In this document: one piece after another, positions 24,876 to 52,710 of the stretch
How positions within the stretch are numbered: position 1 is the stretch's first letter
Layout: the number at the start of each line of letters is the position of its first letter
Virus record (IMG/VR): IMGVR_UViG_3300032271_001847
Coordinates: 1 to 64,000 of that record
DNA: 64,000 bases
Source: a virus
Strand: one strand, 5' to 3'
Program-made: the position numbers and the translations under genes
Notes under the pieces: model-generated
What the model saw: only the letters and a program-made list of their open reading frames with translations
The model's database searches: none
Told to the model about the DNA's origin: nothing

Positions 24876-24884
24876 TATTTATCC
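24876..24884 (-). promoter_or_regulatory. Putative late promoter, GGATAAATA
   Basis: Minus strand, overlapping the end of the giant gene and only 4 bases before the mini-gene start. Confidence 0.55.
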
Positions 24885-33800: not shown

Positions 33801-36086
33801 TGGACTTATGGTGCTTATTATGTCTGATAGAGGGGTGCTATTAAGCACGGCAAGCTTTAACAGAGTAGCACGATGGTTCAATATGCTACGACCAAGATGT
33901 TTCATCTGTGCGGTATCCCTGTAATTGTTCTGTCCAAGGGGTGTGCCGACAATGCCTGGTTGATTCTCTATGATCTGAGTAAATTGTTGTAAAAACTGGC
34001 TCCTGCTAACCTGTGTGACCGGAAGATTGTTTGGGTTAGCACTGAGATTGCTTGGTATCTCGTAGAATCCAACCATGATGTCCGGAGCGATTGTATTCCA
34101 TGTTTTGACTATCAGCCGTGAACCATCTGGTTGGGTAGTTATTAGATTTATCATCGAACCCAGCATGGTATAATCAGTTCCTTCTACCAATTGGATTGTC
34201 TGACCATTTGGTGTGATGACGCTGGCAAATATAGTTGGTAATCCCGTTGCAGATCGAGCAGCAGGTGCTTGGTCAAGAATGAAGGAAGTCGTTGGTGATA
34301 CTATCACGAATTCGTTAACGATGTACTGGCGGCTTGATTCAGGCGATTTGTACCACGAATTAACGTATTCGTCGGTGGATTGCATCGAAATCTTCGAGAA
34401 TAGATAACCCATGTAGGTTGTTTCTGTACCACCAATGACATACGAAACGGTATCAATCTCAAGATCATTGTTGAACACAAAATCTCCAAATTGATCAAGC
34501 TTGGTGTTGATGTTTAATTCGGAGTCAACTGCCTGATTCACATCCGTTGCATAGCTGAACACCTTGCTGCCTGCAAAACTACTTCCTGGATAAATGCTAG
34601 GGTCGTCCATTGCATTACCATCCACATCGTACAGCATGAAAAGAGGTGTTGAAGCACCAAATTTTTGTTGCCCGTCAGTCCGCCATGTGTTTCCATCAAA
34701 ATAGAGATTTTGATCCTGGAAATATCCAAACGAGATCGAAACCCTGCTGCCGCGTTCTGGATAACTCTCTTCGATCAATGCAATCGGGGCGGTATTGTAT
34801 ATGACGATCTCGACCACTCTACCAGCGGCTACCGGTGACACCATGGTTACTTGTTCGCCCGTCCACGAATAGGTCAAGGGGGATTGTTGAGTTCCATCAA
34901 TGTATAACACCATGTGATCAGTTGAGTGTTGATAAGGAGACGTGACAAACACTGATGTTGGAACAGAGACCGGATATCTAAGTGTTGCGGGTTCAACCGT
35001 ATCTATCGACACACGATAGATACGGTTGTTCACCTCCGGATCCGCGTCATTTAAGACAAGGATACGCATGCCATCCCTAAGAGGTATGCCTTGCATGACA
35101 TAAGATTTTTGTCCAACTATGGTACCAAACACATCTGACAGGGTATTATCAGCAAGATCCACCGTTCCTTGATCAATCCAACCATATTTCCATATCTCAA
35201 TTCCAGCGTCAAATTCAATTATCGGGCGCCTGGCCTGGAGAATGGATGGGTCAGGGTAGATGGTCTTTGACAATCGAACAACATCAAGATGGAACCATCG
35301 ATTTGACCTGCTCCACTGATTTCCGTCAGGGCTCATTCGAGAAATGGTAACGTAGTTCTTTTCCTCCAACGCGGCACCCGACCAAGATTCCACATCCCAT
35401 GGAGACGAATCCCAACTGGGAGATGCGGAGAACGTATTTTCTGATAGTTCAATCCCTCGGCCAACGCCCTCGACAAACCATTCTCGGCCGTTTATATCAA
35501 GGGTGAGATCATTCATAGGAACTATCTTGAGCCCACTGGTAAAATCAAGCATCGTGGTATCAATTGAACCATTTCCGTATCTAACGGCACCGACATACGT
35601 GTATGAGATATTGCCCGTGGCGTCATTTAACAGATCAGTTGTATCCAGTAATTCTATCGCATCTGGACCATTTGGCAACCAAAAATAACTGGAAAAATTG
35701 GTAAACTTATCCAGATCAATTGGTGGACTCCATGAATAGTATTCTTGATCAAACAAGCGGTCATGGTTGTTAACCAATCCTCCCTGGAATCTCAGCTGTC
35801 CGATGAGATCCTCGTAGAACATGGCATGGGTGATCTTACCACTGAGAAGATCCGTACTAACCACCGTCGGGGATAGCTGGTAATCCGACCGAGATTTAGT
35901 CGGTTCGTTTATGTAAAAATCCTTTGCCGGATCATACCATGACGGACGATTTCCAATGTACCCGCTAAGAAATTCCACGCTTTCTGGTTGGAAAAGATGG
36001 TCAACCGTTGCAGCAAAGATCTTTGTTAGATTTTCTGTCTGCAGGTAGCTCGGGAGTAGCTCTATATTGCGACGCTTATCAGCCAT
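24879..36086 (-). CDS. Giant baseplate-associated virion protein, 3,735 residues
   Basis: One uninterrupted gene of 11.2 kb directly after gene 6 (8-base overlap), where T4 has gene 7. The N-terminus (RRNIELLPSYLQTENLTKIFAA) is typical of large wedge-associated proteins in T4-like cyanophages. The body is beta-rich with repeated themes: a motif of the form VGNGTRTDFTIP followed by VLVTINGV, other strand pairs such as MVLYIDGTQQSPLTYSW, and Gly-rich repeats such as YKPGDTIQLATT and YSVGNQLILTGTGG. No signal peptide or catalytic site recognised. AGGAA precedes the start. By position it may replace gp7 and perhaps gp8/gp10 functions in wedge building or be a long side fibre; I cannot tell which. 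Confidence 0.75.
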   Translation of the reverse strand: MADKRRNIELLPSYLQTENLTKIFAATVDHLFQPESVEFLSGYIGNRPSWYDPAKDFYINEPTKSRSDYQLSPTVVSTDLLSGKITHAMFYEDLIGQLRFQGGLVNNHDRLFDQEYYSWSPPIDLDKFTNFSSYFWLPNGPDAIELLDTTDLLNDATGNISYTYVGAVRYGNGSIDTTMLDFTSGLKIVPMNDLTLDINGREWFVEGVGRGIELSENTFSASPSWDSSPWDVESWSGAALEEKNYVTISRMSPDGNQWSRSNRWFHLDVVRLSKTIYPDPSILQARRPIIEFDAGIEIWKYGWIDQGTVDLADNTLSDVFGTIVGQKSYVMQGIPLRDGMRILVLNDADPEVNNRIYRVSIDTVEPATLRYPVSVPTSVFVTSPYQHSTDHMVLYIDGTQQSPLTYSWTGEQVTMVSPVAAGRVVEIVIYNTAPIALIEESYPERGSRVSISFGYFQDQNLYFDGNTWRTDGQQKFGASTPLFMLYDVDGNAMDDPSIYPGSSFAGSKVFSYATDVNQAVDSELNINTKLDQFGDFVFNNDLEIDTVSYVIGGTETTYMGYLFSKISMQSTDEYVNSWYKSPESSRQYIVNEFVIVSPTTSFILDQAPAARSATGLPTIFASVITPNGQTIQLVEGTDYTMLGSMINLITTQPDGSRLIVKTWNTIAPDIMVGFYEIPSNLSANPNNLPVTQVSRSQFLQQFTQIIENQPGIVGTPLGQNNYRDTAQMKHLGRSILNHRATLLKLAVLNSTPLSDIISTISPSDPMMAMQYAQRSYQRFYGRFIQTLFNLSTKQGFSASYVAGGCDPYMISQWVSSALAQINIGKTSSSPWANSGPSGVPGSYCSIPSTSPTYVPATSARLGITPSYYPVVYMDDTYKTPRMAIQTHDGSRIVMVDQQGEQLGSILHGQVSTSNPEQLDNPIAAAWLQFELDLYASLPSGYKNPEAEYVFDVRTYSPGKWRTSSYTRIEHLQLQRGAFDKWVISAQADYRANTGYDTDDQFSWNYSNMTDRNGSLVPGHWQGIYRWVYDTDRPHTHPWEMLGFSQKPTWWDSQYGEAPYTRGNTLMWEDLRDGHVSQGPRQGIHQEWKRPGLLDCIPVDDQGNLLAPYQAGCISSLPSVHDAAAEWEFGDGGPIESTWVNSQDYGFVQAQLGYLMKPARFVEYTWDITRTMDAYSETVNDQWIYIDTNSRRSSNQFYVHRENPSLISNGIVIPNETSLSYFGSCGLQHWISEYLISQGLDVTNYCGNVVRGSDVQLSHRMAGYVNADSFRGLVDSFGQVGYNSQLIPSENIKVYLYRSTSIGESYYGGVMVEKTKDGWKVYGYNVIYPTFTIIPPNTRGSKNTVIIGNQRVIEYTTGLKTTKLIPYGTTFTSRQEVYDFLIGHGRWLISQGWVFDQYGNDSNSMMDWFQSAKEFLFWSQGSWTNGTFIALSPSADMVKFKQDFGNIQYVNGIVAGTYPVIDRAGMPIQPQNVVVSRNEGTITVNATNDQGVYGLRLFRTTIEHAVFFDNLTSFNDVIYQPLYDLKQDRIKILSYRTNDWNGRVDAPGYIITQNTTSNTWTMTSNFEKTADDFRKYFNIDQPKNYSEINQTTGALIERTSKQSVVDRKDISDISRHMIGYQNRDYMQNLLLEDATEFEFYQGFIKKKGTRSSLDSLLRNTSILPAKSTFEYYEEWLLRVGRYGATDLNDLVEIRLPQDRMVNDPQRIRLFGNHDGDNANDDVLDIVPRDPLMVTPPESYIDRKFALRSSYAPNTSTDNPTTGYAMLGETTWLAATSSDLLALYDNQKTTSTPVKNRDTVWQFITNTGTWMTWVLTPAYAQVDLTIPSNISGAPTVITTASPHGLSDGDICIIYGISGVSAINGTYTVSSVTPLTFQIDVTTYEQGTGGTIMVYRPTRFADVFSRDSGEPPGGWIDGNLAYVDDGGIVEGAWTVYKRAQGRWTAFRQQEYKVDASLIKQNKLFDSISGMQLTTLNYYDPAKGFISGRADAEINYKTDYDPAKYNNGNNTKYALSPTESWSSAQLGQVWWDLSAVRYIDYEQGDGKYRMQQWGKIAPGTSIDVYEWIRSPIPPSDWSSNVAQGQSITDGGRSYIPSGSIRNPTSPSWTELIEYGANGTSTTYYYFWVKNSGMSPASPSRALTTEQIANLIEQPSTDDKPWWAAISDDSLIIGNYASRLNGTRTIQQITYTSTPNDSNIYGEWELVREGDSMSPISTKLWDKVKTSLITFDGLGNDVPDYHLNDLQKYGTEIRPRQSWFMDRVAASKVFVDTTNQLLSTSATPLIDDASKAGWENYFYAAEPIPPQSGNWDYRVQDMLQRDALVGAIVPGQVVLVEPVSENGNLWTMWEYQTNGVEWELIRKQGYNTANYWNYVDWYMTGYGSYTTIKATVQTPADLSTVENAYSGFVVKVLNNGVNKWQLFSFSGKWTLVGQQDGNIEILPSIYKWSKNFGGFDGTAFDYAPFDLTASVEFGNIIDGISNAIYGYPNSIEKNTLFFSMISYAISEQHQIDWAIKTSNIVLKGFNQDLAKNSLFAADTIDSIIGFINEAKPYHGKIREFVYGKSSIDTSSVSLVDFDAPPGWLADPLTEMPGEGTAERAYYDTYQSWKDNYISNPELIRNLNTTLVFDRISTPALVPGWGSAWSSFGWESESTDQTFGAMTRIEEYYEPSPGMLPKIVADLISGAVYKGTVLSALGFNMQEGWGHSPWGFIGWDADKAAIEAYLDQIIQGGAIPNYDSAIGNGISRRFPLLRHAVNPNSMVVWSDGKLRTYALEWTVPTHAVSARIIEGGFGYQPGDLLDVTAGTGVISARIQVLSTNHGSITDVELVGTGSYSTVLPGPYPASYPLLYPGTGMHAVIEIDWACQEIEFVTPPSSSSVPNIYVLYAGTTFEPAPLAESDHVIEGNEFIQPNVDDDHPEELYPFKARDALMMDVTSRAAGNRPLVSSRVYITDGLSDQFDLLIAPQSDQAVMAYLDGTPLVAGVSGDFVINYDTNHMVFINPPAPGTLSVTCIGNGGGGGRMVKNSYVVATGRNYKPGDTIQLATTIGIEPTVLKVISVQASGYRITNPGKGYSVGNQLILTGTGGTSTSDTVLKVISVGTMGEILGLSVLSPGSWTVTPNSPYSWKTNRSKKKINVDAVIDAVWGVDLLGVVLPGLWARLPVQPLVQLPVGYGSATNTNGTGLTVNVDYTGEMEKYEYVGNGTRTDFTIPTPFAGVLVTINGVLTPINSLLTNGIRLLPAPAYGSVVVITAFDTQQFSTVVETVLSITDGLLLTYHLSQQPYSTLPTCVSTTVRKNGKLMKTPLIQQILGLGSPFEYPITIDLTGASVEIFVDSVHLIGGVDYLISNNMIWFSSRPDIGSNITIVATSPDTEYTISGQYITFKSGSIVAGDTVLVTTYSQDMDYEFHEEVFDETTTGIYILAAMPYDISTISVWFDGKHMVPGRDYVVTRAPAVNGWSKIEWDTYQWDMPRGETMRVELTPTDGWDRAAWDTDGWDMVRKVVISYMTGKPERPAIAWRTLTSGDQIISTVIDPMRETTILGNVYTYSSSIEIANYDTVSIPTHNGIGYVYINDEMIGYREIQLAPTTQHPSRAFLTGIRRNQNGTSGTPRSRYNALFYNGDGYTVDFATESATQALSTTVWKNDMIMVEGSDYVFVDLPGGRYVRFSTPPQVGYKNVKIVALNVDSVQTNLSHVSGSTVIDAGDAVRMPWGYNWEPSPNGLQYNDSTQARFILSHSFGG

Positions 36087-39000
36087 TGCTTATTCCTAGA
36101 ACGCTTTCGGTGAGTGATGGTACTATTTGGACATCGGTTACCCGTGCTCCACTAATGAATATCTCGTCGGCATCGCACGCGATCTCAAAGAGATCACCAA
36201 ATTTTGCCTGTGCGTTTAGTGGTGTTATCACCACCGATCCAACAATGGTGGCAAGAACCTGATGTATGTATGCAGCCAACTCCGTGAAGAAAAAACTCTG
36301 TCCAAAATCCCAGTTTGAAAGGCTGAAATATTGGTTTACGGCCTGTATTACCAAGCTCTTGACCTCATTATCAGTAACCGTGGTCCCGGGTGTTTTGACA
36401 ACCTTGAATTTTGCTTGATATTCTGGTGCGGCCTGGCTACCAACGATCACCTTGTAACTAACAGGATGCCATATCATCTGATCAGTCATCTGCTTGTATT
36501 GTTCAAGGTCAACAAACGCCGCCTTGAGCTCAGCACTGCTAAGTGGCTGTGGCATGGTTGCCATGCTACCATTGGTGGCTATCCAATTCCTGAGATCAGT
36601 ATCATACGCGGAAGTTAATGTGTACATATCGATTATGTTCATAACCGCCGGATTGATGCGCTGATCAGTCGGAGCAAAATGCTTCCACAAAAAAGAAAGA
36701 TTGTTTCTTCCTATTCGCATCTTATAATCCGGGGTCACATCGATAAAGGTATTTTGTGCATATTGATAGAAAACGCCATTGCTGATGATGTATGCCACTT
36801 CACCGGTTGTCCAGTTGGCATCAGTCGGAGTTGGTAACAATCCTGGATTTGAATAGATGCGCGACGTTGGTATGACAACCGGATACCAATACTGGTATCC
36901 ATCGGACGAGGTTTTCCTATTCCAGAATATCATCCTGCTTGGTATCATCTGCGGATCGACTATTTCATTAAACTCATCCGGGTCGTCTGGAATTCCATAG
37001 TTGTCTCCTTCCCACATCGTGAGACGCACACTGCGAGGATCAGCAAATCCGTCTGGATATATCTGTTGTCCAGTGATTTGCCATAGATAATCTTGAGATA
37101 GTGCTAAACCGGTTGTTGAATCCGGATTGATGCTCAAAACACTGACATAATCAAGCTGTGCCGTATTGGTATTTGGATCAAACACCTTCTTCGTGTTTTC
37201 AAAATAAAAACGATTTTGTCTCTCGCTTTCAAAGATGTATCTCATCGCACGAGAATATATCCTCCACCCTGCACCGGTCCACACAACCTTGATCATCCAG
37301 CTTGCATCCTTATTGGTGCTACTGGTATTTCCAGCAAAATCAAGGCTAAAACTAGAACTCGCGCTAAGATTATCCGACGTGATCACCTTCCATGTAAGAT
37401 CAGATGCATTGTATCTGACTCCAAAAGTAACATGCTTCTGCAATTGTGCCGCTATGGCAATGCTTTCATCCTGTGTAAACGTGGTACGGAAAGATGCGAT
37501 AACATATGATGGCTGGTATCCCTGTCCGAGAAGCGTGCTAATGGTTATGGCACCTTCTCCGCCCGACACCTTTCCGGAAAGATTGATACCAGTACCATCG
37601 CCGATGACACCTATCAATGAAGCTAGGGTGTTTTTTCCGGTAGATGGATTTGAAAACCCAACCAATGATCCTTGCGTTACATATTGAAGCGGGCTGTTGA
37701 CCGGCGCGTTTGTACCAACGGCAACAGCAGTAGATCCGGTGAAAAAAGCACCTGTGCAACTGGTAGTAAGGCTCGTGATGGTCTTCCATACGTATCCAGA
37801 CCCAATATCCACGCGGGGATAGCTGTAATAAAAGAAATTCTTTAGCTCAAGCGCCTGTGTTTGGCTATTAAAGCTGCCATTGACCAACGGCTGTATCTGC
37901 GTATTGACAACAACCAATGCATTGGTTCCAGGGGAATTGACCACGTCTCTCATGTTGAGATCGTTTTCCATGTAAAGGATTCCGTCAGTTCCAAAAACAT
38001 TCAGATCGTTATAGCTACCGGTAGGATCATTTAGATCAAGGTATCGGCTCTGTCCGCTATAAACACGATTCACAGCCTTGTTCTTTAATATCCTTGCATC
38101 CTGCAACGGAAAGAGATTGTAATCTTCACCGTTGACCATTCGATCCTGGGTGTAGTATGTCTGGGGAGCGTTCTGTGCAATGCGATAGTTATCCTCGGTG
38201 CTCTGTGCATTGTTCACGGTGTATTGAAGATTGGTGGTGAACGCCACGTTCCATGCGTTGTTAAGATTGTCCACATATGCAAATGCAAACACCTGATTTG
38301 AAATGTCAGAAGGACGTATCTGATAGGTGAGATTATTGCTAATCCTATGCCATACCCTAACTATTCCAATCGGAACGTTTCCAAAATTTCCGTCAGCAAA
38401 TCGCACGCTGATTTGATCATTTCCATTGCTGTCTCTCGTGACCACGCTATAAATGTTGCGTATGTTCTTATCAATGCTGTTGTAGATGACATTAAATCCG
38501 TTAACGCTAGGAACCTTGGTCCATTTCTTGCTCACCAACCCGGTGCTATCTATCGTTTGAACCCATACGTCGGTCTGGTTAACACCGTCCGTGTCAACAT
38601 CTATCACGCGGTTTGCTAGTGGGAGGCTGCACTGATAGTCCTTGTACTGCATGCTACCTTGTTTAAAATAAAGGAAGAAACCGGTGTTAGCACTGGCATA
38701 TCCATTACCATCGGCACGATAAACGATGTTCCAACTGTTCAACGGATCAGGGTCAATCTCATAAAAATTTCCAGAATTTGCTAGAGATGTGGTGCTACCT
38801 TCATTGAATGTTGCATTTGCCAATTCAAGCTGTACGTTGTTCCCTGCAATGGACGCGGTAAATGGAATCACGCTAAGAGGTATTGAAACGTTGTTCATCT
38901 CATATAGCTGGGTTTCAACACCTGAAACCAATCCCGATTTTGATGGATTTCCAAACGTGTTGGTTGAATTTAGTGTGGCATTCATCACCAATATAAATTG

Positions 39001-39468
39001 TTCAAACCAATCAGGGTTGTTTTGATCATTCCAGATGATTTGCACGTTTTGAAGATTGGTTCCATATGAATCGTATATCGGCTGGTCAGTGATCACAGCG
39101 GTTATCTTCACCAACCCGCTTGCCGGAATGCATCGCTGTGGCTGATAGTTGAGCATGCGTGCTAATCTGAAGATGCTTTCACGGCGAGTTGCCGTGTCAA
39201 GGAAGTTCTCTCGTGTATTGAGATCCATCCTGAAAGCCAGACTTTGTCCAAGATATGCTAACAGATCGATCAATGCAACAAACTCGCTGCTTTCGACCCA
39301 ATCGTTAAAATCCTCCGGATAATTCAACCGTATGTAGTTGATCATCGCAGTGCGTATCGAACTAAAATCATATGCGTTGAAATTGATCTGCGTGAACGCC
39401 GTGTATATGACGCGCCAATCCTCAGCGGCAAAGAGTTGACTCTGTCTCAGTTGTTGTGTGATGGCCAT
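36079..39468 (-). CDS. gp6: Baseplate wedge protein gp6
   Basis: 1,129 residues. The N-terminal region has the strong gp6 signature: INFNAYDFSSIRTAMINYIR, VALIDLLAYLGQSLAFRMDL, FLDTATRRESIFRLARMLNY. The rest is the baseplate J-like core and a C-terminal region ending in FGDLFEIACDADEIFISG. gp6 forms the dimeric core bundle that links neighbouring wedges of the contractile-tail baseplate. It lies 16 bases after gp25 and overlaps the giant gene, the T4 order 25-6-7. T4 gp6 is 660 residues, so this one is much longer, as in cyanophages. Confidence 0.93.
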   Translation of the reverse strand: MAITQQLRQSQLFAAEDWRVIYTAFTQINFNAYDFSSIRTAMINYIRLNYPEDFNDWVESSEFVALIDLLAYLGQSLAFRMDLNTRENFLDTATRRESIFRLARMLNYQPQRCIPASGLVKITAVITDQPIYDSYGTNLQNVQIIWNDQNNPDWFEQFILVMNATLNSTNTFGNPSKSGLVSGVETQLYEMNNVSIPLSVIPFTASIAGNNVQLELANATFNEGSTTSLANSGNFYEIDPDPLNSWNIVYRADGNGYASANTGFFLYFKQGSMQYKDYQCSLPLANRVIDVDTDGVNQTDVWVQTIDSTGLVSKKWTKVPSVNGFNVIYNSIDKNIRNIYSVVTRDSNGNDQISVRFADGNFGNVPIGIVRVWHRISNNLTYQIRPSDISNQVFAFAYVDNLNNAWNVAFTTNLQYTVNNAQSTEDNYRIAQNAPQTYYTQDRMVNGEDYNLFPLQDARILKNKAVNRVYSGQSRYLDLNDPTGSYNDLNVFGTDGILYMENDLNMRDVVNSPGTNALVVVNTQIQPLVNGSFNSQTQALELKNFFYYSYPRVDIGSGYVWKTITSLTTSCTGAFFTGSTAVAVGTNAPVNSPLQYVTQGSLVGFSNPSTGKNTLASLIGVIGDGTGINLSGKVSGGEGAITISTLLGQGYQPSYVIASFRTTFTQDESIAIAAQLQKHVTFGVRYNASDLTWKVITSDNLSASSSFSLDFAGNTSSTNKDASWMIKVVWTGAGWRIYSRAMRYIFESERQNRFYFENTKKVFDPNTNTAQLDYVSVLSINPDSTTGLALSQDYLWQITGQQIYPDGFADPRSVRLTMWEGDNYGIPDDPDEFNEIVDPQMIPSRMIFWNRKTSSDGYQYWYPVVIPTSRIYSNPGLLPTPTDANWTTGEVAYIISNGVFYQYAQNTFIDVTPDYKMRIGRNNLSFLWKHFAPTDQRINPAVMNIIDMYTLTSAYDTDLRNWIATNGSMATMPQPLSSAELKAAFVDLEQYKQMTDQMIWHPVSYKVIVGSQAAPEYQAKFKVVKTPGTTVTDNEVKSLVIQAVNQYFSLSNWDFGQSFFFTELAAYIHQVLATIVGSVVITPLNAQAKFGDLFEIACDADEIFISGARVTDVQIVPSLTESVLGISNG

Positions 39469-39484
39469 TGTTCTCTGTTGTCCT

Positions 39485-39868
39485 TTAGATCATCTGCTGG
39501 CTGCGTTTGTCAAAATTCACAGCAAAAGTTCCATATGCATTAAATGGAACGTAGTATAGGTTCATCAGTATCCGTAGCATTCCGTCTGTTTCGGTAACAT
39601 CGATTGATCCAAGCTGAACACGAGAATCTCTGGATATGACCTGTTCGGCTTCATAGACTATGAGATCTCGAACCTGATCAAGGGGTTCAAAGAGATATTC
39701 CCATATACCACATCCATAACCGGGCATCATCACCCGTTCATTTTTCCTGGTATAAAAATGATTTAGCAGATCCTGCTCCACCATCTTGAGATCAACTAGA
39801 TGTTGGATCCGCGAAGAGCCGACGGTCGAATATCCGACGAATAGATTTTTGCTTGTTAAAGTTGCCAT
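39485..39868 (-). CDS. gp25: Baseplate wedge protein gp25
   Basis: 127 residues matching the gp25/lysozyme-like wedge family: VEQDLLNHFYTRKNERVMMPGYGCGIWEYLFEPLD, then VISRDSRVQLG. gp25 starts sheath polymerisation and joins gp6 and gp53. I chose the ATG at 39868 because the earlier in-frame ATG at 39886 lies within the late promoter. It has no visible ribosome site. First gene of the long late operon. Confidence 0.92.
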   Translation of the reverse strand: MATLTSKNLFVGYSTVGSSRIQHLVDLKMVEQDLLNHFYTRKNERVMMPGYGCGIWEYLFEPLDQVRDLIVYEAEQVISRDSRVQLGSIDVTETDGMLRILMNLYYVPFNAYGTFAVNFDKRSQQMI

Positions 39869-39876
39869 ATTAGCTG

Positions 39877-39885
39877 TATTTATCA
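39877..39885 (-). promoter_or_regulatory. T4-type late promoter, TGATAAATA, for gp25
   Basis: Minus strand, 8 bases before the gp25 start; transcription would start about 3 bases before the ATG. Confidence 0.6.
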
Positions 39886-39965
39886 TGGTAAGAAGGTGGA
39901 GATTTTACGGTTATTGACAGCCATTGATACCAATTAGCACACTGAACGTCTAAGATAGGGATAAC

Positions 39966-40208
39966 ATGCCAACAGTTGAAGAAACCATCCTTGGATATCT
40001 CAAGGATTACACATCGCCAGGATTTACTCCGGCATTAGAACACCGTCTGCTAGAGGATCTAAATCTTGATAGCCTTGACATAGTCGAGCTTTCCATGCAT
40101 CTGGAAGAATCACTCAATATCATTCTCGATGATGACGATGGCATACGAAAATCCAAAACGGTTGGCGATCTTGTTTCTTTCATACGTAAACGCACCGGGT
40201 TACAATGA
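39966..40208 (+). CDS. Acyl carrier protein
   Basis: 80 residues with the ACP fold pattern: helix 1, then LLEDLNLDSLDIVELSMHLEE with the phosphopantetheine-accepting Ser 36 in DSLD, acidic recognition helix, and a final helix ending KRTGLQ. ACPs carry acyl chains on a 4'-phosphopantetheine arm added by a host AcpS-type enzyme. No acyltransferase or ketosynthase is seen nearby. It overlaps the next gene by four bases. Phage ACPs could redirect host lipid or acyl-dependent steps; the role is open. Confidence 0.87.
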   Translation: MPTVEETILGYLKDYTSPGFTPALEHRLLEDLNLDSLDIVELSMHLEESLNIILDDDDGIRKSKTVGDLVSFIRKRTGLQ

Positions 40209-44397: not shown

Positions 44398-45285
44398 CTA
44401 CCAGCTGGATCCAGGACACTTGATTGACATTACATTTTGATATCCGTCTGTCCACCATAATTTACCAAGACTTCTAGCACCAATGGCAGATGATGTTCTC
44501 ATTATTCTGCCTGGAAACCATCCGTCTCCGGGACAGATTTTTGACATTTTACTAACAGTGCCGTTGCTCCACCATGTGGTTCCTTTATGTATCAAACTAG
44601 ATTTTGCTCGTTGTTCGACAGTGTTTGTTTGTAAACTACCTATTATCCATCCCTCACCGGGGCAAGTTTTTGACATTTTATTGTTGGTTCCGTCATTCCA
44701 GCATTTTAGCCCAGTCTTCAATTCTTTTAACTTATTGATAGTATCCAGCTTATGGGTGTTATTACCTTTTAAGACCTTTGTGGCTAATGCCTTTGCAGCC
44801 CCAGTTTGATAACTATTGTTCGCCTTCCTTGTGGCTACAACTTTTTCTACCATTTTACGATAGGATCCTGATGCACGTTTGGTTTCAACCGATCTAGCAA
44901 CCGATTCAAGAGTTCTTTTGTCGTTTCCGTTCTTCTTTCTAGTCAAATTTCCCTTAGCTACTGACGCAGGGGTTGAATGGAATCCACCTTTGGCATAACT
45001 TCGATTTATGAATAGAGGGCTATTGACAACGTCAAATATGATCTGCCATTTTCTCTCAAGCTCTACCGCCTCGTCTACCGTTTCAATATATTGATCCGGT
45101 ATAATGATAGTTTCAAATAAGTGCGGATTGGATTTAATTTCTGATGTCCACACATCTTTCCATTCAACCGAAGTTACCGATCCGTGATAACCTTTTTGGA
45201 TGTTCTCAACTTTTGTGCTACCTATATAATATGGAGGTAGCAATTGTCCTCGATATATAGTAAAATAAATGCAATATTTTTGCAT
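44398..45285 (-). CDS. GIY-YIG-like homing endonuclease with C-terminal repeats
   Basis: 295 residues. The N-terminus (YCIYFTIYRGQLLPPYYIGST) is a GIY-YIG-type start as in Seg-like phage nucleases, with WKDVWTSEIKSN and AVELERKWQ after it. The C-terminal part has three copies of a short motif (CWNDGTNNKMSKTCPGEGW; WWSNGTVSKMSKICPGDGW; WWTDGYQNVMSIKCPGSSW), probably a NUMOD-like DNA-binding module. The gene is A+T-rich and antisense to its neighbours. It lies between genes, not inside one. Its leader nearly equals that of the HNH gene at 9741, including the late promoter. Confidence 0.8.
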   Translation of the reverse strand: MQKYCIYFTIYRGQLLPPYYIGSTKVENIQKGYHGSVTSVEWKDVWTSEIKSNPHLFETIIIPDQYIETVDEAVELERKWQIIFDVVNSPLFINRSYAKGGFHSTPASVAKGNLTRKKNGNDKRTLESVARSVETKRASGSYRKMVEKVVATRKANNSYQTGAAKALATKVLKGNNTHKLDTINKLKELKTGLKCWNDGTNNKMSKTCPGEGWIIGSLQTNTVEQRAKSSLIHKGTTWWSNGTVSKMSKICPGDGWFPGRIMRTSSAIGARSLGKLWWTDGYQNVMSIKCPGSSW

Positions 45286-45716: not shown

Positions 45717-48700
45717 TCAAAACTGAGTGGCATCGACCATGGCATTGCTGCTTCCACCTGTGTTATCAATTTGGGGACCGCCCATGAAATTAACCACCTC
45801 AGCACGACGCCTGATCACCAGCCCGTTGACGATCTGACCGGCCGCATTCTTCGTGTGCTGCATCCAAAGATTTGGTACGCTTTGAAGATTTCCTTCATTG
45901 AATGCCTTTAGGGCGGTTGATGATTTGAAATTACCCTCGCCTATATTGAATGCAAGACTACAAAACATGTCATACTGTGTCTGGCTAAGACCAACCTTGA
46001 TCTCCGGCTTGACCCAATCTTGGACCTTTTGTAGATCCTGTGTAAAGAGATCGTTTATCTGTTGTTGACTGAAAGGTGCCGACAAGCTTACCTCAAGTCC
46101 GTTTATGATAACGCTGTTCTTGCTGATCTCCTCTGCTGATATGCCATGACCATAACCTATCTCTGATTTTGGAGGATTGCCGACGGTAATCGGACGATAG
46201 CTACCATTCTCACGCGAGGTGATGAATTGTTTTCCAGAATCGCTAACGTTGAGAGAACCTGCACTGAGTATCGTGGTGTTACCAATTGGCGATTCGTATC
46301 GATATATCGGTTGCCCTTGAGAATTGTAGCTATCACCTCGATAGACCGCCGGAGGCATATCAGATCGCGGTGTTCCATAAACATCCAACGGACGATCACT
46401 CCTGGCTATGATTTCTCCATCTCGAAGACCAGTGTTGGTGTTCACCGATGTAGCGTCTCTTATGTTCTCAAAATTACGCCCGCCGTGATTTGCATATGGT
46501 TCATGATATGGCAAGTGGGGCATGATGGTGTCCGTTAGAATGGCGGTGACGTTGCCAAAACTGTTAACCACCGCGTCGGTTTGTTTCTGCCCTTCTTTGC
46601 CAATGGCTGCCGCCGCTGCAACAGCAGCAGGCGGTGCTGGCCCGTTCATGTCTATCTTTGGAGAGTCCATCTGTATAAATCCAGATGCACCTACTGTCCA
46701 GTCAGCGCGAACGCTCTCATGTGAGTAACCACCGGCTATGCGATTGACGTTTCCTATCGCGCTATCAAACAGATTCTGTCCAACCAACCTATGCATGTCT
46801 TGTTGGCTGGTCAGGAACATGTGTTGTGCCGATAGGAGATGCATGCTGTTTTGACTTTGTATTTTAATGAACCCGCCCTCAAGATTTGAATCTGACGTAG
46901 AAATTGGCGCTCCTTGTCCGTTAGCACCGGTGTCCGACGGTGTTGTTGGATATCCATCAACCTGATTAGCCGGAGAACCTGTCCCAGCAAGATCTGGTTT
47001 TTCTCGATAGAGATTCGCTTCTCTCAGCCTGCGTGCCGTTAAGCCGGTTGGATTTCCGCTCCATCCTAGGGCACTGGTTTCTATGGTCTTGGCAGCACTT
47101 TCAATATCTCGGCTGTTGATATAGTTGGTCAGTCCTTTTGATACCGGTTGTCCTAGATTACCAACGTTATATGCATAGCTCACCAATGCAGCACGCTGAT
47201 AAGGACCTAACAGATCCCATGCACCTCGGATGGCCCTACGTACAACTGCGGCTCCAAGTGCTTCGATGTCAACCGCAAACATTCCTTCGGCCTGCTCGGC
47301 CGTGCAAGTTGTATCCTTGCCAAATTGTCCCCTGATAGGAACTCTGCCAGCCGACCCGCAATTTATGGAACTCTCGCCACGTGCTAGGTTGTTCTTGATG
47401 AGATGTCCGTGTCCGATTGAAAACTGATCCGTCCTATTCGGTGGGTCAGGAAACGCCGTTAAGCTTGGTCCTCGACGTCCCGACTCTTCTCTCTTAACGA
47501 ACGGTATTGCAATGGATTGCCAAGTGATATCAGTAGTTTGTGCAGCATTTGCAGATGCTGCATCCTGTGTTACTGCTGTCGGCTGTCCGGTACCGGTTGC
47601 ACCGGTTGCACCGGTTGATCCGCCGGTTGTGGTTGGCCCGGTAGGACCGGTCGCACCCGTGGTCGACGGGATGCATTGTGCCTGTGCGGCGGTCGCAACC
47701 ATGTCGTAGCTACGGGGATGCAGATTATCTGCCGTTGGGTAGTTAGCAAGGTCAATCACCCTGTCATTCTTGCCGTTAGCAAAATCCGCCACCACTTGTT
47801 TGGCAGCGTCATAATAAGGAAGTATCCAAACGTAATTTGATGCCTGCAGGAAACTACGTATCTGTTCGAGATTCGCACGGAGCGTGTTAGGGTTACCACC
47901 CTGCGGGGTGATGTCATTGCTGCCGGCACTGATGATGGCATTTGTTGCGTTCTTGAGAGAAGGATCAGATTTCAATTTGTTTAGTATGGTGGTGCTGTTA
48001 TCCCCAACGGTTGCCATGGTTCGGGCGGATGTTATCTTGCTTCCTATTCCTACCGCGATGCTATCCCCTATCACCACGATCGGACCCGGAGATTCGGACG
48101 GGGTTGGAGGATTGCTCAGTGGGTTCGGTGTGACGGCAGCACCGGTCTGCCGACCGCGTGCCCTTATGTTAACGTCACGCCCGGCTTCGATGTTCACGTC
48201 CAGATCGCCACGAAGATTGAGGCTTCCTTGGGTACGAAGGCTGATGTCATCCTGCGCATAGATATCAATCTTGCCATTGGCATCCATGCTTATCCAATTC
48301 TTACCATCAACTGAATTGAGATATATGCATCCAACCGTGTCGTTGATCATTATCTGGGCGCCATGCTGAGTGCGTAGCCGTATGAGGGAGTTATCCGGGC
48401 TATCATCAAATACCAGCTGGCTACCGCCCGGTGTGAGTATTCCGTAAACCGTGTTATACGGAGCGTCCCTGCGTGCTCCACTATCAGTAACACCTCGCAC
48501 GGTATCCTGATCAAGCCCTTGCGTGATCAGAGCATCGGACAATGGTTCATATAGTGGTCTTGTTGGAGAGTTAAGATTAGAGTCAGGTAATTTCTTGTTG
48601 TATTCAGCAGCCGGTAAGGTTGCCGAAGTGTCCTCACCAGGTATGCCAGGAACCATGTGGTTCATGTTTTGTTGATACAGGCATCCTAGCCATATACCCC

Positions 48701-49052
48701 GGCCGGGATCTCCATTGATGAATGCGCAGACCACCTCGTTATTGATGTCCGGAGGTACGAACCACATGCCATAGCTTTTCTGCGTAGCAGTGTAGGTCCG
48801 TTCATTGGTGTTTTTATAGACATTTGTAGCGCCCGCAAATGGAGCACAATAGCTTACTATGAACCATGTGGACTCATCGTTTGGATCTCCTGACAGTTCT
48901 GGTATCCAGATCGCAAGCCTGCCCATCCTAAGAACATCATCAGCATTTTTCACAAATCCAATGTATATCTTGTCCTGTAAGGTCGCGCGTCCGGCGGGTT
49001 TGCCGCTGAACTCGTCTGGTGAGCTGTAGCTCATTATCGGAACATTTGACAT
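45717..49052 (-). CDS. gp5: gp5-type baseplate hub protein with SGNH hydrolase and two lysozyme domains
   Basis: 1,111 residues. N-terminal OB-type domain (about 25-135; IYIGFVKNADDVLRMGRLAIWI, INGDPGRGIWLGC), beta-helix-like region (205-300), then an SGNH/GDSL hydrolase domain (about 324-457) with all blocks: IGDS (Ser 331), Gly 350, GSND (Asn 379) and DNLHP (Asp 442, His 445). A collagen-like Gly-x-y linker (466-487) leads to a GH24-type lysozyme domain (about 513-690; REESG, FPD, FSIGHGH). After a second beta-rich region (722-800) a further GH24-like domain is at 938-1095 (RENG, SEIGYGHG). It should form the spike hub that punctures the outer membrane and digests peptidoglycan; the SGNH part may remove acyl or acetyl groups. 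T4 gp5 has a single lysozyme domain. Confidence 0.88.
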   Translation of the reverse strand: MSNVPIMSYSSPDEFSGKPAGRATLQDKIYIGFVKNADDVLRMGRLAIWIPELSGDPNDESTWFIVSYCAPFAGATNVYKNTNERTYTATQKSYGMWFVPPDINNEVVCAFINGDPGRGIWLGCLYQQNMNHMVPGIPGEDTSATLPAAEYNKKLPDSNLNSPTRPLYEPLSDALITQGLDQDTVRGVTDSGARRDAPYNTVYGILTPGGSQLVFDDSPDNSLIRLRTQHGAQIMINDTVGCIYLNSVDGKNWISMDANGKIDIYAQDDISLRTQGSLNLRGDLDVNIEAGRDVNIRARGRQTGAAVTPNPLSNPPTPSESPGPIVVIGDSIAVGIGSKITSARTMATVGDNSTTILNKLKSDPSLKNATNAIISAGSNDITPQGGNPNTLRANLEQIRSFLQASNYVWILPYYDAAKQVVADFANGKNDRVIDLANYPTADNLHPRSYDMVATAAQAQCIPSTTGATGPTGPTTTGGSTGATGATGTGQPTAVTQDAASANAAQTTDITWQSIAIPFVKREESGRRGPSLTAFPDPPNRTDQFSIGHGHLIKNNLARGESSINCGSAGRVPIRGQFGKDTTCTAEQAEGMFAVDIEALGAAVVRRAIRGAWDLLGPYQRAALVSYAYNVGNLGQPVSKGLTNYINSRDIESAAKTIETSALGWSGNPTGLTARRLREANLYREKPDLAGTGSPANQVDGYPTTPSDTGANGQGAPISTSDSNLEGGFIKIQSQNSMHLLSAQHMFLTSQQDMHRLVGQNLFDSAIGNVNRIAGGYSHESVRADWTVGASGFIQMDSPKIDMNGPAPPAAVAAAAAIGKEGQKQTDAVVNSFGNVTAILTDTIMPHLPYHEPYANHGGRNFENIRDATSVNTNTGLRDGEIIARSDRPLDVYGTPRSDMPPAVYRGDSYNSQGQPIYRYESPIGNTTILSAGSLNVSDSGKQFITSRENGSYRPITVGNPPKSEIGYGHGISAEEISKNSVIINGLEVSLSAPFSQQQINDLFTQDLQKVQDWVKPEIKVGLSQTQYDMFCSLAFNIGEGNFKSSTALKAFNEGNLQSVPNLWMQHTKNAAGQIVNGLVIRRRAEVVNFMGGPQIDNTGGSSNAMVDATQF

Positions 49053-49067
49053 TATTTCTTTCCGTTA

Positions 49068-51572
49068 TCAGATAGGTCCGCCGGTGGCAACCGCGGCATG
49101 TGCTTGTGTGGTTAGTTTCTCAAGTTCAGCCGTTGTTGGTAGTCCTTGCGAGATCAATGGATCCCGAACGGCCTTGATGTTCTGTGTGAATTTACCATCC
49201 CTAAACGTGCTCTTAATGTTAGTTGCGCCATATAGCCCGGCAAATGCAACACTGGTGTTCTTGAACTCCATCAACCCTGAATCCTCGCTAGGAGCTTCAC
49301 CCGTCCTGAACAAAAGCAAAAATCCGGTTTCTCCTGAATAGAACCATGCTGCATCCTGTCCCTGCGGAGTGGTGTGGTTCTCAATGTATTGATTTTCAGC
49401 TATGTTACCCAATCCAAGCCAAAATGGATCACCGCGTATATCAAGATCAATTGATACGAAATAAGGAGCGGTGGTCATGTCATTCAACACCGATGCAACC
49501 AGTCCTCTGGATCTTGGCATGTTTTCTGGGCCTTGTTGGGTACCAGCCCGGTCGGGGCTTGCTTCTCCAGACATGGTGGTGCGCTGCGCCATTGGCGGTG
49601 CTCCCGTGCGGAAACTCACCGGAAGTGGGGTTGGAACAAATGCCGTGGTTTTCACGTCTTCAAGATATGCGCTACGGCGCGTCTGTGTCATCTGTGACCA
49701 TTGGGATGCTGCCACGAGGCTTTGTGCCACATTTCGATCCTGTAGAAGTGCGGGATTTGTTACCTGTATGTTCTGCAATGCATGTTGACCAGAGCTGCTG
49801 TTATCCCATGTCACCTGGAAATTTCTTGCGTCATTATTTCCAAGATTTGTTAAATCTAATCGAGCTTGGTTGAGCTCTCTAGTGGCGTTAGCTTTGTCTT
49901 GGGTAGCAGCTAGACGTTCCTGTGGAGTTGACCCTCTGTTATTCAGCACAGCCGTTGCGTTTTCAAGCTGTGTTTGGGCACGGATTGCATGCGCCCGTGC
50001 TGCACGGTATTGGCTAAGAACGCTGGTTGCCACCCCGTTTGAATCCTGCTGAGGACCAACTGAGTAATTTGTATAGGTGTTTTCCCCTAGTTGGGTTGGT
50101 ATCATGCTTTGCCAAAAAAATTCAAGCTTGATGTCAAATCGTAATATATCAAGATTTCGGCCCGTATAAATGTATTCGTATGCTTTTGAAAATCGTTCAG
50201 ACGTCAACTGGGATTGTAATCGATTTGTTTGCATGGCCGGACTATTGGTGACATTGCGAACATTGCTCTGATCAATCATCGCACGATTGGTTTCGTACTT
50301 AACAAACGTGTAGGTTATGCGCCGTACGTAGTCGCTGGTGATATGATCAAATCCAACAAGCTCAACCCGACTATGGATCGAAAAGGCGTTGGCCATGCCA
50401 TTATTTTGTATGCTTGCTCCGGCTTGCCGGGCCGCCCGCCTGCTTCCTGAGGCTCTTTCCTCTCCTGCAACGTATCTCCTGCCCTCGTCGGTCATTCCAA
50501 GCACGAAATAGAGTATGGTGCTAACATCCATTCCTCTGGCAATGGTGATAGTTGGATTACTCGTTCCTCTCCCACTTCTTACATCAAGTCCTGATTGCCT
50601 CTGGCTTGTGACAGGATTACGTGAGAACTTCCATCCAGCCATTTCAACAGGAACTGAAAATTTGTAAATATTTCGCTGGGTAAAATCATAATCAAGATTC
50701 CTCTGTTGAGAATTGAGCGCGTTTTCAAGCTTGCTAAAAAATTCTCCGATTGTACTAGCAGGGCCTATATTAAGGCTACTAGCCGTTGCAATCGCCACGG
50801 TGTCGCTGTTGGCATAGGTTCCATCAAATAAACCTTCAAGGTGATACGTGGTTCCAGAACTGGTTGTTTCGGCCAGCATCTTGGTAACATTTACCCTGAA
50901 TAATCGATAGATGGTTTTTTTCATATCCGTTGTGGCCAGATGACCATCCTCTCCGTATCCTGTAAACCAGACCTCAAGGAACGATGGAGACGTGAGATGA
51001 TTATGTACTCCCATTATCTGTGACGCCGCATACAACCGATCAACAAGGCTCAATCCATATGGCTCTCGTATGGTCATCTTCCATCCGGTATGTCCCATGG
51101 CCTGCGTTTGTGGTCCAACAGGGCAGATATTATCTATCTCAAGATCAGATATGTTGAATCCAACCGTAGCACCACTCTCGGCAATGACTATCTTCCCGGC
51201 ATTTTCAAATTCAGCTGCTGATCTTATTGAGGACGAAACTATGTCATTGGCCAATGACCATCGTATGTGATAGGTATAGTTGGCATATTGATCGAGAACG
51301 TTTGGAAATGGTGAAAACGTTTTACCGGCCTGTTGTGCCGCGTTTGTTATGTCGGCACGCATGTCAGCAAGCGTTGGAACAATGTTGTTTTGCCTTGCTG
51401 CGATCGCGGCAGCGGCCTGTTGTCCTATGCTTGAATTTTGTATTGACGATAGCGATACGTTCTGATATACGGCACTTTCTGCCGGATCTGATCGTGGTGT
51501 CGGGAGTATGGTTCGTACCGCATTTGGGTCGTTTGGCGTGGTAGAAGATCCACGATTTCTGTTAGCTACCAT
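49068..51572 (-). CDS. Baseplate hub-region structural protein, 834 residues
   Basis: Between gp53 and the gp5-type hub. No enzymatic motif. Contains regular beta-rich modules (YTYHIRWSLANDIV, PFWLGLGN), a helical Gln/Ala/Arg-rich stretch at about 560-625 and a final GLYGATNIKSTFRDGKFTQ segment of the type found in tail hub proteins. By place and size it may do the job of T4 gp27 as the hub base between tube and spike; sequence alone does not prove it. Ends 15 bases before the hub gene. Confidence 0.6.
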   Translation of the reverse strand: MVANRNRGSSTTPNDPNAVRTILPTPRSDPAESAVYQNVSLSSIQNSSIGQQAAAAIAARQNNIVPTLADMRADITNAAQQAGKTFSPFPNVLDQYANYTYHIRWSLANDIVSSSIRSAAEFENAGKIVIAESGATVGFNISDLEIDNICPVGPQTQAMGHTGWKMTIREPYGLSLVDRLYAASQIMGVHNHLTSPSFLEVWFTGYGEDGHLATTDMKKTIYRLFRVNVTKMLAETTSSGTTYHLEGLFDGTYANSDTVAIATASSLNIGPASTIGEFFSKLENALNSQQRNLDYDFTQRNIYKFSVPVEMAGWKFSRNPVTSQRQSGLDVRSGRGTSNPTITIARGMDVSTILYFVLGMTDEGRRYVAGEERASGSRRAARQAGASIQNNGMANAFSIHSRVELVGFDHITSDYVRRITYTFVKYETNRAMIDQSNVRNVTNSPAMQTNRLQSQLTSERFSKAYEYIYTGRNLDILRFDIKLEFFWQSMIPTQLGENTYTNYSVGPQQDSNGVATSVLSQYRAARAHAIRAQTQLENATAVLNNRGSTPQERLAATQDKANATRELNQARLDLTNLGNNDARNFQVTWDNSSSGQHALQNIQVTNPALLQDRNVAQSLVAASQWSQMTQTRRSAYLEDVKTTAFVPTPLPVSFRTGAPPMAQRTTMSGEASPDRAGTQQGPENMPRSRGLVASVLNDMTTAPYFVSIDLDIRGDPFWLGLGNIAENQYIENHTTPQGQDAAWFYSGETGFLLLFRTGEAPSEDSGLMEFKNTSVAFAGLYGATNIKSTFRDGKFTQNIKAVRDPLISQGLPTTAELEKLTTQAHAAVATGGPI

Positions 51573-51886
51573 TATGCACCTGATTTTCCCGGAAGATTAT
51601 TTGCGCTTGGAATGTATATGGTCATGCCCGCCTTGAGATCGTTTATAGGATCCTTGATGCTGTCGGGATTCCTTAGGGCAAAAACCCACCAATATCCCGT
51701 GGTTTGATAGAAATCATAGCTAAGGAGGTCAGGACGACGATCATATTTTGCCTGCACGGTATAAAGAGAGTCAGTACCAACAGGATTGATAAAAGACCCA
51801 TTCCAAAAATCAAGATAGTCCAGATAAATGCTAGGCTGATCGGTTTGTTGATAAGGGCTCGATCCTTGGTATGTGACCTTGCTCAT
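51572..51886 (-). CDS. gp53: Baseplate wedge protein gp53
   Basis: 104 residues showing the gp53 pattern of T4-like cyanophages: YDYLDFWNGSF-like N-terminal motif (LDYLDFWNGSF), YDRRPDLLSYDFYQTTGYWWVFALRNPD and a LysM-like end (DLKAGMTIYIPS). gp53 clamps the wedge to gp6/gp25 during baseplate assembly. T4 gp53 is about twice as long. GGAGG decides the ATG at 51886, which overlaps the previous gene end. Confidence 0.85.
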   Translation of the reverse strand: MSKVTYQGSSPYQQTDQPSIYLDYLDFWNGSFINPVGTDSLYTVQAKYDRRPDLLSYDFYQTTGYWWVFALRNPDSIKDPINDLKAGMTIYIPSANNLPGKSGA

Positions 51887-52710
51887 GCCCACCCTCCTTG
51901 CCTTAGCAGCTCTCCGGTCCTAAACTTGTCAAGATCAAATGCACGGAGCCGTTGTGGAGTCTGCTGCACGGTGAGATTAACTGTGATGGCAAATGCTGCC
52001 GGCAACCATGAATATCCGTTTTGGCCCGCACCACTGGCGATGGATTCTTGTGTGACCTTATTCACTCCGGACGCCGTTCCGGTTGGAGCAGCGGTATTGT
52101 TTCCGCCTGCCTGCACAGGAACATAGTCAACATCCTTTGGCAATGTCATGGTAAATCCGGTCACGATCACCGGCAGTGAATTGAACATGAACTGACCATA
52201 AGCATCAAACAACAAGACCGGCGGCGGAGTTCCTTGCCTTGCATCGGTACCCGAAAAATACATCTTGGTCACCGTTCGCAAGAAATGCAAGCAAGCAAGG
52301 GCATATTGACCCTCTTTTTGGCTCTGTACAGTGAAATCTCCGTCAACCTGTAGCTTCAACGCTGGTGTTTTTGAATAAACGTGGAAGTCCTGATTGGCAT
52401 GCACCATCTCCATTGACTGGTAGGATACCTCTTGTTGGTATGTTATTGCCGGTTGATATGGAAATACCATCCCTTTAGTTGTTACCAATGGAAATAATAG
52501 TCCGGTAAAAGATCCATACACAGTTCCAACGGCTGCAGGTTTTGGACGTAATCTTACCCGTCTTCCTGCTGTATCATCGAGATTTTCGGGTGCAGTCGGT
52601 GGATTACCTATGGGATTGACAAACGGAGAACTTGAGTACTGTGTGTTGTTTGTCGGAACTGTGACGGAATCTGCTGATATTCCGGGTGTAGCGCCGCTTG
52701 AACCTGACAT
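51883..52710 (-). CDS. Tail tube-associated baseplate protein (gp48/gp54-like candidate)
   Basis: 275 residues, N-terminal low-complexity region followed by a core with HVYSKTPALKLQVDGDFTVQ, ACLHFLRTVTKMYF and PVIVTGFTMTLPKDVDYV. This resembles the tube-initiator type proteins in T4-like cyanophages that cap the hub and start tube growth. Late promoter at 52739 and GGAAG before the start; first gene of this leftward late operon. The exact T4 counterpart (48 or 54) is uncertain. Confidence 0.62.
   Translation of the reverse strand: MSGSSGATPGISADSVTVPTNNTQYSSSPFVNPIGNPPTAPENLDDTAGRRVRLRPKPAAVGTVYGSFTGLLFPLVTTKGMVFPYQPAITYQQEVSYQSMEMVHANQDFHVYSKTPALKLQVDGDFTVQSQKEGQYALACLHFLRTVTKMYFSGTDARQGTPPPVLLFDAYGQFMFNSLPVIVTGFTMTLPKDVDYVPVQAGGNNTAAPTGTASGVNKVTQESIASGAGQNGYSWLPAAFAITVNLTVQQTPQRLRAFDLDKFRTGELLRQGGWA

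Follow-up and report, generated by a model that had tools for sequence, protein, structure and literature searches.

A T4 gp5-type baseplate hub with a predicted SGNH hydrolase and two GH24 lysozyme folds, the last of them altered

The stretch of DNA analysed here (the window; 64,000 nucleotides) belongs to a viral record of 69,763 bases. The whole interval 45717-49052 is a single minus-strand open reading frame of 1111 codons, for which the best PHROG is 13211, 'baseplate hub subunit and tail lysozyme' (E 2.5e-38). Pfam matches in its product comprise Phage_base_V (the OB domain), two Phage_lysozyme stretches and DUF2345, a VgrG/gp5-like β-helix. A baseplate neighbourhood of gp6-like, gp25-like and wedge genes is present in the window. 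The features of the hub gene and its block are as follows.

45717..49052, minus strand: gp5-type baseplate hub / tail spike gene, 1111 amino acids (PHROG 13211, Pfam)
49068..51572, minus strand: virion structural protein, 834 amino acids, upstream of the hub in the same baseplate block (PHROG 11190)
51572..51892, minus strand: baseplate wedge subunit, same block (PHROG 7145, E 1.4e-23)
36079..39886, minus strand: gp6-like and gp25-like baseplate wedge genes, same block (PHROG 10646; Pfam GPW_gp25, E 4.7e-10)
48675..48965, minus strand: OB (Phage_base_V) region, residues 30-126 (Pfam PF04717, E 4.6e-10, two stretches)
48153..48449, minus strand: β-helix part 1 (gp5C/VgrG-like), residues 202-300 (model secondary structure; phmmer)
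47649..48092, minus strand: SGNH hydrolase domain, residues 321-468 (fold prediction, structure search, residue alignment)
48060-48062, 48003-48005 and 47916-47918, minus strand: codons of SGNH residues S331, G350 and N379
47727-47729 and 47718-47720, minus strand: codons of SGNH residues D442 and H445
47532..47660, minus strand: Gly/Thr-rich disordered linker, residues 465-507 (pLDDT under 50; Gly-X-Y count)
46977..47531, minus strand: GH24 lysozyme domain 'a' (GH24a), residues 508-692 (alignment; T4 lysozyme structure match; Pfam)
46653..46910, minus strand: β-helix part 2, residues 715-800 (DUF2345 match at 729-770; continuity in the hubs L025 and L065)
45771..46256, minus strand: GH24 domain 'b' (GH24b), residues 933-1094 (alignment, conservation scan, structure search)

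Judged by these matches, the 1111-residue protein is a T4 gp5-type hub/spike of a jumbo myophage. A close long relative, L005, shares 55% identity across nearly the entire protein and comes from a 452,799-base record; the 69,763-base record thus probably covers just part of a larger phage. A baseplate role is supported by matching gene order in the cultured phages Atu_ph07 and Phosso. The hubs of Atu_ph07 (Agrobacterium), Phosso (Sinorhizobium), PA5oct (Pseudomonas) and Salicola SCTP-2 show 39-46% identity across roughly residues 4-300, and their hub and wedge genes follow an order similar to that of the window, but the hubs of Atu_ph07, Phosso and PA5oct are without SGNH or GH24 domains of the window type. 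The PA5oct and SCTP-2 proteins stop after the spike, whereas the Atu_ph07 hub (L001:5971-8565) has a C-terminal trypsin-like protease domain (Trypsin_2, PF13365, E 6e-17). On visual reading the Phosso hub (L002:6001-9132) is similar to that of Atu_ph07; it contains an extended Gly-rich stretch, and Pfam called no protease in it. None of 50,697 phage records had a single place covering 80% of the hub protein.

Elsewhere in the window, an HNH/homing-endonuclease-like gene (44398-45285, minus strand; PHROG 10820, E 2e-27) adjoins the hub gene, and an 80-residue acyl-carrier-like protein (39966-40205, plus strand; PF00550, E 8e-6) is encoded beside the baseplate wedge genes on the other strand. 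A virion structural protein of 3735 amino acids occupies 24879-36086 (minus strand; PHROG 10938). At 54766-57609 (plus strand), an SbcC/gp46-like ATPase gene carries an apparent in-frame intein at about residues 51-408, which matches LAGLIDADG_3 and Hom_end and interrupts the Walker A loop (GVGK/AQPLSS...THN/TTLLQ). No RNA families or tRNAs were found in the window.

Within the hub, the OB domain is followed by a predicted β-helix that is interrupted by a cassette of around 410 residues, consisting of the SGNH hydrolase domain, the Gly/Thr linker and GH24a, after which the β-helix resumes and the protein ends with GH24b. The full-length model (pLDDT 59, pTM 0.33) is usable for single domains and says nothing on the trimer or on packing. 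In it, residues 202-300 form regular strands, about one per 10 residues and seen specifically across 202-266, at low pLDDT, as a presumably trimeric helix was predicted as a monomer; residues 201-307 match the contractile-system spike chains 7aef and 7b5h by phmmer. The DUF2345 match to the β-helix (E 4.2e-5) falls under the curated cut-off. Two relatives bear directly on the insertion: in L065 the equivalent of residue 299 is joined to that of 712 with 15 residues between, and in L025 that of residue 300 to that of 726, only 10 to 15 residues separating the β-helix parts in the pair. The SGNH and GH24a domains therefore form a cassette inside the spike. An earlier note on this DNA had placed the SGNH domain between a gp5-type N-terminal region and a lysozyme; that order is right, but both domains lie inside the β-helix. 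Its collagen-like linker does not survive inspection, since no unbroken Gly-X-Y run exceeds 4 triplets, and the stretch is instead a 43-residue disordered region rich in Gly and Thr.

Relatives vary in this respect. The L028-L050 group and L105 have an SGNH-like domain without GH24a; L025, L065 and L046-L049 have neither domain; and more distant hubs carry SLT, M15/VanY or trypsin-like domains. The GH24a-bearing architecture forms one clade (tree support 100/99).

The SGNH domain yields a sub-threshold Pfam GDSL match only (E 0.38), but Blocks I, II, III and V of the SGNH/GDSL superfamily (Ser, Gly, Asn and Asp-x-x-His) are all present, and the spaced four-block pattern occurs once in the hub protein and in none of 20,000 shuffles. 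AlphaFold modelling of residues 318-468, aligned with 22 relatives, gave a mean pLDDT of 94, and the best structural matches of the model are SGNH hydrolases with Z of 13-15, a match recovered from the full-length model also. The smallest matching structure is the catalytic domain of Staphylococcus aureus OatA (132 residues, 2.3 Å, Z 15, 16% identity); the top matches also include TesA/lysophospholipase and Sinorhizobium carbohydrate acetylesterases, while Ape1 (8gkd) ranks 50 in the Foldseek list. Residues and fold thus bear out the earlier observation that S331, G350, N379 and H445 with D442 are intact. The domain is real by both measures and its esterase function is a prediction: sharing a fold with OatA, a transferase, is no proof of esterase activity. 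SGNH enzymes are known both to add and to take off the O-acetyl group of MurNAc (PMC6174289; PMC9487903). One scan of bacterial genomes with a single query sequence found no SGNH relatives, a result compatible with their presence. Among cultured phages the subfamily was represented by just two small proteins (MW202640 and MT835823), neither of them in a hub.

GH24a has a lysozyme fold and a full Glu-Asp-Thr/Ser triad, E523, D536 and S545 aligning with E11, D20 and T26 of T4 lysozyme, and residues 513-691 of the full-length model match T4 lysozyme structures with Z about 14.9. In the T4 enzyme, E11 protonates the bond and the attacking water is kept in place by D20 and T26 (PMC7060211). The Glu and Asp are kept in all 15 distinct relatives; the Thr26 position is filled by Ser or Ala, the latter in L005 and L017, where it may weaken the predicted activity. 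A search for GH24a in cultured phages gave no match at E 1e-3.

The C-terminal domain tells a different story. The earlier note had a second GH24-like domain ending the protein, and the fold is indeed there: residues 927-1092 of the full-length model match GH24 endolysins, with a best Z of 18.4 to 6et6. Two of the three triad residues, however, are lost. E948 is retained, but the Asp20 position is occupied by G958 and the Thr26 position by E964, in a motif, ENGSYxxIxVGxPPxx[E/Q]IGYGH, found in 14 of 14 distinct relatives with the window architecture. Both D20 and T26 equivalents are lost in all 14 relatives with GH24a and in none of 11 hubs without it; these 11 distinct hubs, L105 included, retain the Asp together with Thr, Ser or Cys, and Asp and Thr/Ser are present in every unrelated GH24 domain with a readable motif (46/46). 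The loop from E948 to H969 has a conservation of 0.80 against 0.60 for the rest of GH24b, ranking fifth of 138 scanned segments. As the altered loop is more conserved than the remaining domain, free decay does not explain it. Since the GH24a-bearing architecture is a single clade, the change in GH24b is a single event, and its link with the gain of GH24a is a correlation with n = 1. On these residues GH24b probably does not work as a usual lysozyme, although it is perhaps not dead, since single-Glu lysozymes able to cut exist, such as AP3gp15 (PMC5674055).

The state of the SGNH residues differs among relatives. Ser, Gly, Asn, Asp and His are complete in the window protein and in L005, L016, L017 and L018. 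S, G, N and H are also intact in the distant hubs L075 and L076 (with VanY), L094 (with Phage_lysozyme2/SLT) and L080, as is the tetrad in the non-hub phage proteins L085, L089-L091 and L093 and the small proteins L070 and L071. It is broken in L007, L014, L020, the clade L008-L024, L105 and the clade L028-L050. One triple loss (S to G, N to G, H to Y) occurred within an SGNH domain otherwise 87% identical. Between L014 and L018, 79 codons differ silently and 21 change the amino acid; S, N and H are among the 21 (hypergeometric 0.002, for a pair picked after seeing the data). On the tree, parsimony requires at least three changes of state within the family, in either direction, and by our count six losses if regain is ruled out. 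The broken domains are under purifying selection (pN 0.15-0.20, with pS near saturation in most pairs); synonymous sites being mostly saturated, exact dN/dS ratios are not given and selection is claimed by direction alone. Most relatives thus keep the domain with a broken tetrad, and SGNH catalysis is therefore not essential to the spike. A fold broken yet conserved would point either to a further role, for instance in binding glycans, or to an activity harmful in some hosts.

Among the more distant proteins, L075 (3556-7932) and L076 are 1460-residue hubs with OB, β-helix, SGNH and VanY domains and a weak acyl-hydrolase match in the C-terminal region. L089, L090, L091 and L093 are large non-hub phage proteins of the same SGNH subfamily with a probable lytic domain; L090 and L091 are nearly identical in the SGNH part and differ in the upstream domain, which suggests module exchange.

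Beyond the observed architecture, folds and residue states with their distribution, we infer trimerisation, timing, substrates and a division of labour. In a jumbo phage with a contractile tail, the protein would form the trimeric hub, or central spike, with an esterase-plus-lysozyme cassette placed beside the needle by insertion between two β-helix turns; with such an insertion, the enzymes should flank the needle rather than sit at its tip. As the phage enters, the glycan strands are most likely cleaved by GH24a (E523/D536/S545), and the SGNH domain most likely strips ester-linked acyl groups that obstruct it, our first guess at the substrate being O-acetyl on peptidoglycan and our second O-acetyl on surface polysaccharide. 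GH24b, at the far end, would no longer be an ordinary inverting lysozyme and is most likely retained, its active-site loop remodelled but strictly conserved, as a peptidoglycan-binding tip. These roles draw on the known block of lysozymes by MurNAc O-acetylation and on Ape1 being an SGNH esterase (PMC6174289), and on the residue roles in T4 lysozyme. We would give this spike, in which SGNH deacylates, GH24a cuts and GH24b binds, an even chance of being right. For the phage in the window, the combined entry tool proposed in the earlier note may hold, being made plausible by the intact tetrad, the OatA-like fold and the distant hubs that pair SGNH with a wall hydrolase; as a description of the family it fails, since in most relatives the domain persists with its SGNH residues lost. 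The feature as such is real and well conserved and its outline was read correctly, and the three enzyme folds, more than the one lysozyme of T4 gp5, are backed by AlphaFold and fold searches. What changes the story is, to go by the residues, a last lysozyme that is altered and an esterase that is off in most relatives.

The pattern of tetrad loss lends itself to another explanation, namely that the SGNH domain is mainly a binding or structural module, recognising acylated glycans for example, in which catalysis is optional, or selected against where the receptor includes the acyl group. The window protein, with its tetrad complete, would then show one state of a toggling trait. The repeated loss of the tetrad with the core kept, the at least three changes on the tree, the three of 21 L014/L018 amino-acid changes that fall on S, N and H and the continuing purifying selection all fit, and adsorption of phage phi11 requires 6-O-acetyl MurNAc (PMC4876445). 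Binding alone, however, leaves unexplained why the catalytic residues are complete in the window and four distinct relatives, and distant hubs likewise retain them; we regard this explanation as possible but doubtful. It is unlikely, in our judgement, that the domain acts not on peptidoglycan but on acyl groups in the outer membrane or on surface polysaccharides (lipid, O-antigen or exopolysaccharide). The TesA/lysophospholipase and Sinorhizobium acetylesterase matches agree with such a target, and capsule-acting tail-fibre SGNH deacetylases are known, Aristophanes gp41 being cited in PMC11058221; but here the domain lies on the inner spike, in the same cassette as a lysozyme and not on a fibre, and distant hubs too pair SGNH with peptidoglycan enzymes.

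Were GH24b still to cleave peptidoglycan through its single Glu, as goose-type lysozymes and lytic transglycosylases do, this would account for the invariance of E948 and for the strong conservation of its loop relative to most of the domain, and single-Glu lysozymes and transglycosylases exist (PMC5674055). We nevertheless consider it improbable: the fold is nearest to ordinary GH24 endolysins, and the water-positioning D20 and T26 (PMC7060211) are both gone. By analogy with the T26E mutant of T4 lysozyme, which cleaves and then remains covalently linked to its product (PMC7060211), GH24b could conceivably make one glycan cut and stay covalently bound, anchoring the tip while GH24a widens the hole; with Gln at the Thr26 position in a sister clade and Asp20 also gone, this is very unlikely. 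That the hub is an endolysin for release and not an entry device is scarcely credible given its OB domain, β-helix and baseplate gene neighbours, even though the two GH24 domains of the L005 counterpart are the sole copies found by a Pfam search for the GH24 family in that 452,799-base record.

The spike proposed above, with its deacylating, cutting and binding domains, may be set beside known systems. The muramidase domain of SpmX, a bacterial cell-pole protein, derives from a phage lysozyme that was recruited to a binding role as its catalysis weakened. This domain (PDB 6h9d) has the GH24 fold and is matched by GH24b with Z 17, a likeness at the level of the fold. T4 gp5 likewise combines OB, GH24 lysozyme and β-helix in a single hub protein with baseplate neighbours, but in the order OB, lysozyme, β-helix and with one lysozyme (PMC4576200), whereas in the window hub the β-helix starts ahead of the enzymes, the SGNH-GH24a cassette interrupts it and the altered GH24b ends the protein. 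OatA and Ape1/PatB share the SGNH fold and act on peptidoglycan; OatA is a transferase, and none of these enzymes has a tail link. A wall hydrolase joined to an SGNH/GDSL domain in one tail protein is already annotated for Gp44, the tail-associated lysin of the S. aureus phage phi11 (PMC4876445), which, compared by description only, differs in belonging to a siphophage of a Gram-positive host and in having an endopeptidase, not a lysozyme, in another fold context. No description of a hub that combines an SGNH domain with a pair of GH24 domains was found in the largely open-access literature searched.

Well-studied entry spikes such as T4 gp5 have one wall enzyme. In this giant-phage family, modules appear to have been inserted into the spike β-helix and then switched off one by one, the esterase several times and the terminal lysozyme once, for good. 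Whether acyl groups on the bacterial envelope determine which phages need the esterase is now testable, and GH24b provides a natural case of a lysozyme active site that has been altered and is nevertheless strongly conserved.
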